From Bacteroidota bacterium (lineage in GTDB: Bacteria; Bacteroidota; Bacteroidia; Flavobacteriales_D; Sanyastnellaceae), in contig JAQBVN010000008.1 in NCBI GenBank assembly GCA_027622975.1, forward strand, positions 1-64,000: a stretch of DNA of 64,000 bases, given 5' to 3'. Shown here piece by piece: positions 25,242 to 49,308 of this stretch. How positions within the stretch are numbered: the stretch's first letter is position 1; the number at the start of each line of letters is the position of its first letter. Made by a program: the position numbers and the translations under genes. Under the pieces are notes generated by a model. The model saw only the letters and a list, made by a program, of their open reading frames with translations, was not told the DNA's origin and searched no databases.

Positions 25242-25270
25242 GCTGCGAAGGTAGGTCGTACCTTGCCTGC
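25242..25270. promoter_or_regulatory. Mirror-image divergent leaderless promoters, dapD / ruvX
   Basis: The 29-bp gap holds TACCTTCG on the minus strand (25253-25246) and TACCTTGC on the plus strand (25259-25266). Each is followed by exactly four bases and an ATG. The gap is a near-perfect inverted repeat around its centre. Confidence 0.6.
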
Positions 25271-47950: not shown

Positions 47951-48742
47951 TCATTGGGAAACCAACACTTGGTAGGTCAACCACAAGGAAGTGAACGTGG
48001 TGATGAGCTGCGCCACAGGGGCGACATCACTCAAGACCTCCCGGACAATCTGGGGATTGGATTCGACGTAGATGATGTCATTCGCTTGGACCACGGTTCG
48101 GGCTGCCCTCATCCCTTCGATGGTGCTCAGGTCCATGGAAAAAATTTGGTTGTCATCCTCGACTTGGCGAATCAACTTCACCCGGCTAGAGCGACCTCTT
48201 TGGCGGATCCCGCCGGCCTGGGCCAACACTTCGACCACAGTTGTATTTTGATTCTCCAGTGTGATCACCGCCGCCTGTCCGGCCTCTCCTGGGAACACCA
48301 GGACTCGGTTGTTCACCACGGCAATCAAGGCATAAGGATCAACATATTCGGCAGCGTATGCTTCTTGAACCCTTTCCTCGGCCTCTTCCATCGTCAAGCC
48401 CTCCAGCAACACCGGACCGACCTCCGGCAAATCCACTGTCCCGTTGGGCTCCACCCGATACACCACCCCGCCACGTTGCTGTTGTTGTAGCATTTGCTGT
48501 CCCCCTCCTTCCTCGAGCGCCCCAGCCGTCATGGCCATCAGGCGCTGTCCCTTGTTGGAATAAAGTTGCACGGTCAAACGATCGTTTGGCGCGATTGTGT
48601 ACTCTACACCTTGTGCCTTGGACAAATCATCGAAGACAAATTCGGCCGAGGTTTTGAACATCAAATCACGGTTGACGTTGCATCCTGCCAACAGAGCACC
48701 TAGCACCGAAAGCAGCACAATGGGAACGACGTTTCTCATCAT
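47951..48742 (-). CDS. Polysaccharide biosynthesis/export lipoprotein (Wza-like)
   Basis: The 263-residue protein has a lipoprotein signal (LSVLGALLAGC, Cys21) and the poly-export plus SLBB domains: YTIAPNDRLTVQLYSNKGQRL and NRVLVFPGEAGQAAVITLENQNTTVVEVLAQAGG. Wza proteins form the outer-membrane channel for capsule or exopolysaccharide. The C-terminus is a membrane-spanning-type helix (FTSLWLTYQVLVSQ). ATG 48742 is fixed by TACCTTCG five bases upstream; the gene diverges from GNAT/mltG. Confidence 0.9.
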   Translation of the reverse strand: MMRNVVPIVLLSVLGALLAGCNVNRDLMFKTSAEFVFDDLSKAQGVEYTIAPNDRLTVQLYSNKGQRLMAMTAGALEEGGGQQMLQQQQRGGVVYRVEPNGTVDLPEVGPVLLEGLTMEEAEERVQEAYAAEYVDPYALIAVVNNRVLVFPGEAGQAAVITLENQNTTVVEVLAQAGGIRQRGRSSRVKLIRQVEDDNQIFSMDLSTIEGMRAARTVVQANDIIYVESNPQIVREVLSDVAPVAQLITTFTSLWLTYQVLVSQ

Positions 48743-48771
48743 GTGCCCGAAGGTACGGCTATCTTCGCGCT
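48743..48771. promoter_or_regulatory. Mirror-image divergent leaderless promoters, Wza-like / GNAT genes
   Basis: The 29-bp gap holds TACCTTCG on the minus strand (48755-48748) five bases from ATG 48742, and TATCTTCG on the plus strand (48760-48767) four bases from GTG 48772. The layout repeats that of the dapD/ruvX gap, also 29 bp. Confidence 0.58.
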
Positions 48772-49308
48772 GTGTTGAATTCTGCCCATCACAGATTGCG
48801 CGCCATGGAGCCTCAAGACTTGGAGTTGCTCTTCGACTGGGAAAATGACAGTGCGCACTGGTGGATGGGGGCGACCAACCTCCCCATCAGCCGCGAAGCC
48901 ATGCGCAATTTCATCGCTGGGAATCACGACGTGTATCGCGATCGTCAGCTTCGTTGGATGCTGGATGCCCAGGTGGACGAGGCGTGGCAAACCATCGGGG
49001 CCCTCGACCTTTACGATGTGGATCCCAGGCACTTGAGGGCAGGCACCGCCATTCACATCGTAGAGCCCGCACGCCGTCAAGGTCATGGATTGGAAGGCCT
49101 GCGTTTGTTGAAGGCTTATGCCCACCATCACTTGGGCCTCCGACAAGTCTATGCCGAAATCCCGAGCGGCCATGTTGCCTCCGAGGCTCTGTTTGGTGCT
49201 GCCGGTTTTGAAATGTCTGGCATGATGGCCTCGTGGATTCGATCACCTCATGGGTGGAAGGATGTTTCCGTTTGGCAATGTTTGTTTGACAAACCCTGCG
49301 ACCCATGA
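48772..49308 (+). CDS. GNAT-family N-acetyltransferase
   Basis: The 178-residue protein has the Gcn5-related acetyltransferase layout: RAMEPQDLELLFDWENDSAHWW, IGALDLYDVDPRHLRAGTAIHI, RRQGHGLEGLRLLKAYAHHHLGLRQVYAEI and the FGAAGFEMSG end. Such enzymes acetylate small molecules or protein amines from acetyl-CoA. The substrate is unknown; it resembles the RimJ/RimL-type GNATs. GTG 48772 is supported by promoter spacing, although the ATG at 48805 is possible. Its stop overlaps the mltG start by four bases. Confidence 0.85.
   Translation: MLNSAHHRLRAMEPQDLELLFDWENDSAHWWMGATNLPISREAMRNFIAGNHDVYRDRQLRWMLDAQVDEAWQTIGALDLYDVDPRHLRAGTAIHIVEPARRQGHGLEGLRLLKAYAHHHLGLRQVYAEIPSGHVASEALFGAAGFEMSGMMASWIRSPHGWKDVSVWQCLFDKPCDP

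Follow-up and report, generated by a model that had tools for sequence, protein, structure and literature searches.

A probable compact bidirectional promoter with -7 elements set against both start codons between a Wza-like and a GNAT gene in a Flavobacteriales genome

The 29-bp gap between a Wza-like gene and a divergently oriented GNAT acetyltransferase gene in the window (the whole stretch of 64,000 nucleotides that was analysed) very probably serves the primary sigma factor of Bacteroidota as a compact bidirectional promoter, from which both mRNAs would be leaderless. In the proposed arrangement two putative -7 elements of the form TAnnTTYG stand back to back, 4 bp apart and each 4-5 bp from a start codon (Table 1); RNA polymerase would start on each start codon or no more than one base away from it, and the ribosome would read that codon at the 5' end of a leaderless mRNA. 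Because the two sites overlap, the gap would presumably hold only one polymerase at a time. The initial annotation had described two opposed promoter-like elements in a 29-bp gap between these two genes, and the sequence confirms them; in our reading it missed the main point, namely that the -7 boxes are set against the start codons, which would imply leaderless messages. Two details agree less well with this explanation: the minus spacer is 5 bp, not 4, and the plus gene starts with GTG, from which leaderless translation is presumed.

Table 1. Coordinates of the intergenic gap, its flanking genes and the comparison site within the window
Feature	Position	Strand	Basis or detail
Divergent intergenic gap with two back-to-back putative -7 elements	48743-48771		sequence
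Putative -7 element TACCTTCG of the Wza-like gene	48748-48755	-	5 bp (GGCAC) to ATG
4-bp centre CGGC separating the -7 elements	48756-48759		invariant in 11 of 11 genus genomes
Putative -7 element TATCTTCG of the GNAT gene	48760-48767	+	4 bp (CGCT) to GTG
Wza-like polysaccharide export lipoprotein gene (Poly_export, SLBB)	47951-48742	-	domain match
GNAT acetyltransferase gene, GTG on the predicted +1	48772-49308	+	domain match, homologue starts
Predicted plus transcription start (first base of GTG)	48772	+	from published -7-to-start spacing (PMC6847099, PMC9723704)
Predicted minus transcription start (on the A of ATG or 1 base upstream)	48742-48743	-	from published -7-to-start spacing
Comparison site	25242-25270		sequence; minus -7 at 25246-25253, plus TACCTTGC at 25259-25266, centre 5 bp

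Read on the plus strand, the gap is GTGCC-CGAAGGTA-CGGC-TATCTTCG-CGCT followed by the GTG of the GNAT gene, which gives TATCTTCG-CGCT-GTG in the plus direction (spacer 4) and TACCTTCG-GGCAC-ATG in the minus direction (spacer 5), where the ATG occupies 48742-48740. The Wza-like partner matches Poly_export (PF02563, 3.7e-14) and the GNAT partner matches PF13302 (3.3e-14). The length of 29 bp holds if the GNAT gene starts at GTG 48772; a coding-score gene caller placed the start at ATG 48805. We take GTG 48772 as the better start because homologues from other genera start at the codon aligned with it (ATG in L014 and L016, GTG in L015) and because GTG stands at this position in all 11 genomes of the genus; the internal ATG 48805 was ruled out by the homologues. 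Named relatives comprise four loci of uncultured Flavobacteriales, of which one carries the label Crocinitomicaceae, and a more distant Flavobacterium. An Rfam search of the whole window returned no known RNA family at the gap at the gathering threshold; the only match in the window is a tmRNA gene (RF00023, 105-505, minus strand, 142 bits).

Judged by their bases, both elements fit TAnnTTTG, the -7 element recognised by the Bacteroidota primary sigma factor, and both carry its TA-n2-TT-n-G core. In probable promoters of Flavobacterium johnsoniae, 4 or 5 nt separate the box from the start site (PMC6847099), and in F. psychrophilum the box spans -12 to -5 (PMC9723704). The boxes described here lie 4-5 bp from the start codons, and transcription is therefore predicted at or within one base of each codon; at the sequence level the core promoter puts the start codon at or near +1, and by the published box-to-start spacing both mRNAs are predicted to be leaderless. 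With only 4 bp between the -7 elements, the core elements of the two strands fall within one polymerase footprint, and both are present in 11 of 11 genus genomes. Among 74 aligned strict sites, G is scarce at -9 (2%, versus 13% at -10), in agreement with the -7 consensus. No signal of a -33 element was seen in these 74 sites; that element is also weak in F. johnsoniae (PMC6847099), and its absence was thus not treated as excluding a promoter. In core bases, scarcity of G at -9 and lack of a clear -33 element the sites resemble the described primary-sigma promoter (-7 TAnnTTTG, with the TAnnTTGY variant SM5 of F. psychrophilum), whereas they differ from it in a mixed position -6 (T 47%, C 28%, G 24%; n=74) and in that many copies abut the start codon. 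Directly before ATG, at -1, 58-66% of starts in the 430-kb sample have C and 2-3% have T, which holds for operon-internal starts as well; at strict leaderless sites from three members of the genus, 83% have C.

The element has a preferred distance to ATG in the three members of the genus that were sampled. In 430,408 bases of the window's genome (G000; window included, 19% of the genome, whose assembly is 2.27 Mb), 18 of the 85 copies of TAnnTTTG have an ATG at spacer 4, with 0-4 at the other spacers from 0 to 31; for TAnnTTCG the figure is 9 of 72, the next highest count being 6, at spacer 7. For TAnnTTYG the counts at spacer 4 are 27 of 157 in this sample, 21 of 102 in G006 (350 kb) and 21 of 103 in G008 (360 kb), and the means over spacers 10-39 are 3.0, 2.3 and 2.1, respectively. 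Such a preferred distance would also be expected if the motif by the start codon were a translation-initiation (Kozak-like) signal and not a promoter, an explanation that gains from reports that Bacteroidota lack Shine-Dalgarno sites and that F. johnsoniae uses a Kozak-like context. We consider it very unlikely because of the genes before which the motif occurs. We sought the strict element with a spacer of 4 or 5, accepting any in-frame start close to the machine-called one and treating control spacers 9 and 10 alike; the three samples pooled gave 29 of 92 divergent starts with gaps below 70 bp (control 3), 27 of 140 divergent starts with longer gaps (control 6), 19 of 112 codirectional starts at 20-59 bp (control 4), 21 of 211 codirectional starts at 60 bp or more (control 4), and 12 of 256 operon-internal starts, that is, below 20 bp (control 2). 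By these counts the motif is tied to likely transcription-unit starts. Likewise, a logo built from 87 divergent ATG starts shows raised T-12, A-11, T-8 and T-7, and one from 71 operon-internal starts does not, G-5 being non-discriminating in the unselected logo (0.33 divergent versus 0.41 operon-internal), and the scarcity of G at -9 in the strict sites is a further trait of the -7 consensus that argues against a translation signal. From the logo we estimate that about a quarter of divergent genes may be leaderless.

The site is strongly conserved within the genus. The 16-mer AAGGTACGGCTATCTT is present exactly, and in single copy, at the GNAT start of all 11 genus genomes, and 20 of the 21 columns of the surrounding block are invariant, the sole varying column being -6 of the minus -7 element (C, G or T), whose other seven positions are unchanged. 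The GNAT proteins of the other ten genomes are 53-59% identical to that of the window, the four-fold sites of their genes agree with the window's gene at only 0.32-0.47, and 2 of the 18 four-fold columns that could be compared show the same base throughout the 11. Since some of these genomes are closer kin (GNAT identity 0.94 between L007 and L010, and 0.79-0.88 among the four that have no Wza-like gene), the eleven represent a smaller number of independent lineages. Of the 10 loci compared in the family's other genera, 4 (L014, L015, L016, L029) have a -7 element at spacer 4-5 before the GNAT start; the remaining 6 have none at that start, which counts against the explanation. For four other genes a -7-like element lies 4-6 bp before the aligned start in all of the 10, 9, 9 and 7 loci compared, partial or paralogous loci (L099-L101 for 9471; L109 and L110 for 4858) having been left out.

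Unlike the invariant CGGC found here, the sequence that separates the two elements is variable at RuvX and 9471. The full conservation of this 4-bp centre appears to exceed the obvious need of two -7 elements, so that an additional regulator may have a place here. One could read the imperfect inverted repeat CGAAGGTA-CGGC-TATCTTCG as an operator, perhaps superimposed on the promoters, through which a regulator controls both genes by repression or activation; the dyad symmetry of the repeat has one mismatch, and its centre is constant in 11 of 11 genomes, more so than at the two genes just named. We nevertheless find an operator unlikely: its halves are of the same -7 type found at many other starts, variation within the block is confined to the degenerate -6 of the element on the minus strand, and no second copy at one mismatch or fewer occurs in the 11 genus genomes, so that there is no close family of sites (a looser operator would escape this search). 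The same search led us to reject a multi-copy element; one-mismatch copies do occur in two other genomes of the family (G018 and G020), away from their GNAT gene. As an extension of the bidirectional promoter reading, the invariant 20-bp block might work as one orientation switch and not as two adjacent promoters, with the centre setting which way a single polymerase faces and the expression of export lipoprotein and acetyltransferase being opposed. On a wider scale, this family of Flavobacteriales might have a large leaderless share, carried by a -7 element that Pribnow-box searches would miss; we offer this reading as a tentative one that is possible, if doubtful.

Loss of the Wza-like partner bears on the choice between promoter and translation signal. 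In four genomes (G001, G003, G005 and G008; 78-80% complete) rmlC adjoins the GNAT gene in place of the Wza-like gene, and no relative of the Wza-like protein was found in them at E 0.001; G009 likewise has no Wza-like match, and its contig ends inside the gene there. The minus element is kept as TACCTTGG in all four, 54-56 bp before the ATG of rmlC, which would fit a promoter retained for the rest of the operon. All four also have a GTG 4-5 bp after the minus element (loci L053-L056, L008 and L011-L013), as a translation signal would have it; in three of the species the frame that this GTG opens ends after 13 codons, which argues against that signal, and in the fourth the GTG is in frame with rmlC. 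Because of the nearby GTG, the lost-gene case fails to distinguish cleanly between a promoter and a start-codon context. The species concerned are also close kin by GNAT identity, and the loss is probably one event.

A two-sided arrangement of this kind is seldom expected by chance. The strict two-sided pattern occurs once in 430 kb of G000, not at all in 350 kb of G006 and twice in 360 kb of G008, and the wide pattern 2, 0 and 2 times; third-order Markov DNA yielded one strict and one wide case in 20 Mb, and a smaller simulation of 2 Mb yielded none. The two-sided pattern misses the RuvX site because of the TTGC element of the latter. The one-sided motif followed by [AG]TG gave 42 matches in 430 kb versus about 17 implied by simulation, and many single sites elsewhere may therefore be due to chance. 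A loose pattern for pairs was not clean against its reversed control (37 versus 54 reversed in G000; 37 versus 38 reversed in G006), and we therefore relied on the compact-pair pattern AAGGTA-N(0-12)-TAHCTTNG-N(3-6)-ATG, searched on both strands, with a pair that has ATG on both sides counted twice. In the 11 genus genomes it had 88 matches and its reversed control 0; the corresponding counts were 40 and 7 for 20 further genomes of the family, and 12 and 12 for 19 genomes from the order's other families. The site at 48743-48771, which has GTG and AAGATA, is not among the 88. Among the matches listed, several compact pairs look orthologous across species, judged by sequence. The other compact promoters were judged by ATG adjacency only, because few or no genes were called in many of the 20 fetched loci, for which the gene calls used another species' codon table. 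Further divergent -7 pairs with ATG on both sides lie at G000:C35 7770-7805, G000:C16 108155-108196 and G000:C28 79605-79644, with similar ones in congeners.

That two motif-like octamers met in a short gap by mere coincidence is, given these counts, extremely improbable: a single strict two-sided case in 20 Mb of simulated DNA, 88 compact pairs against none reversed, and exact conservation in 11 genomes refute chance for the motifs. For the shared length, chance stands. The initial annotation had likened the gap to a second one, at 25242-25270, and had taken the same length of 29 bp at both as pointing to a minimal divergent promoter unit. The comparison site is indeed 29 bp long in the window's genome, and there only: it measures 40, 41 (four genomes) and 49 bp (four genomes) in nine congeners, and G010 has no match. 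Its plus element is TACCTTGC, not TTCG. Six genomes, counting the window's, have the Wza-like partner in view at the Wza-like/GNAT locus; five of them show a gap of 29 bp and one a gap of 28 bp, and a seventh, G009, where the contig ends inside the Wza-like gene, again shows 29 bp. Called divergent gaps range from -25 to 931 bp in the 45 pairs from the window's genome, and with the 32 and 39 pairs from two other members of the genus they show no peak at 25-35 bp in these samples with machine-called starts. We therefore reject a fixed 29-bp divergent unit, as gap lengths do not cluster at 29 bp and the length of the comparison site is not kept. What holds of the earlier proposal is the compact unit, which is well supported and recurs in the genus; the step from identical lengths fails. 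The length of 29 is a matter of arithmetic, being the sum of two promoter ends of 12-13 bp and a further 4-5 bp; two such ends with a short centre add up to about 24 bp or more.

Bidirectional promoters are already known, and the putatively leaderless back-to-back -7 layout is a variant of them. Those described in Escherichia coli (PMC12825309) are alike in their pseudo-symmetric core elements, and opposed polymerases cannot bind them together; they differ in that divergent start sites there are most often 18 bp apart, with 10 and 23 also common, as against about 30 bp predicted here, and in that the present gap has two separate -7 elements of another sigma type with start codons at about +1. 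For the bidirectional promoters tested in E. coli, basal activity was reported as too low for polymerase competition (PMC12825309), and compact conserved pairs such as these would suit testing that competition outside E. coli. Leaderless genes of Deinococcus-Thermus (PMC12340547) have a -10 element abutting the ORF and resemble the present case in a core promoter a few bp from the start codon and in the leaderless mRNA that is predicted here; their element is TANNNT, unlike the -7 element here.

Mapped transcripts of Flavobacterium and Bacteroides are reported to be mostly leadered, whereas leaderless ones are predicted here: leaderless messages make up 5.5% in F. psychrophilum, about 3.7% in Bacteroides thetaiotaomicron have leaders below 10 nt, and 87% of the predicted leaders in F. 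johnsoniae exceed 10 nt. A survey of leaderless genes found them in 1 of 37 Bacteroidetes/Chlorobi genomes (2.4%) and judged a high leaderless share in such genomes unlikely; as described, it sought Pribnow-like boxes only (PMC3160421). We found no paper, by title or abstract in the open-access literature, on leaderless bidirectional promoters in Bacteroidota. If our reading is true, a Flavobacteriales lineage puts the promoter directly against the start codon at about one quarter to one third of close divergent genes (the 29 of 92 above, control 3), and would differ from the Bacteroidota mapped so far, in which leaderless messages are reported as uncommon. Start-codon calls would then be corrected, and a simple rule for reading the promoters of this lineage would follow.

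Beyond the divergent sites, TANNTTTGNNNNATG outnumbers its reversed pattern by 685 to 81 in the 11 genus genomes, 2244 to 686 in 26 other members of the family and 1871 to 1140 in 23 genomes of the order's other families, two of which are at parity; the leaderless-type motif is patchy and not private to the window's genus. In a draw of 198 genomes across the phylum, some members of a family outside the class (f34) also scored high, with counts for TAnnTTTG-N4-ATG of 28 versus 4, 38 versus 6 and 56 versus 8 reversed in, for example, G170, G193 and G201.
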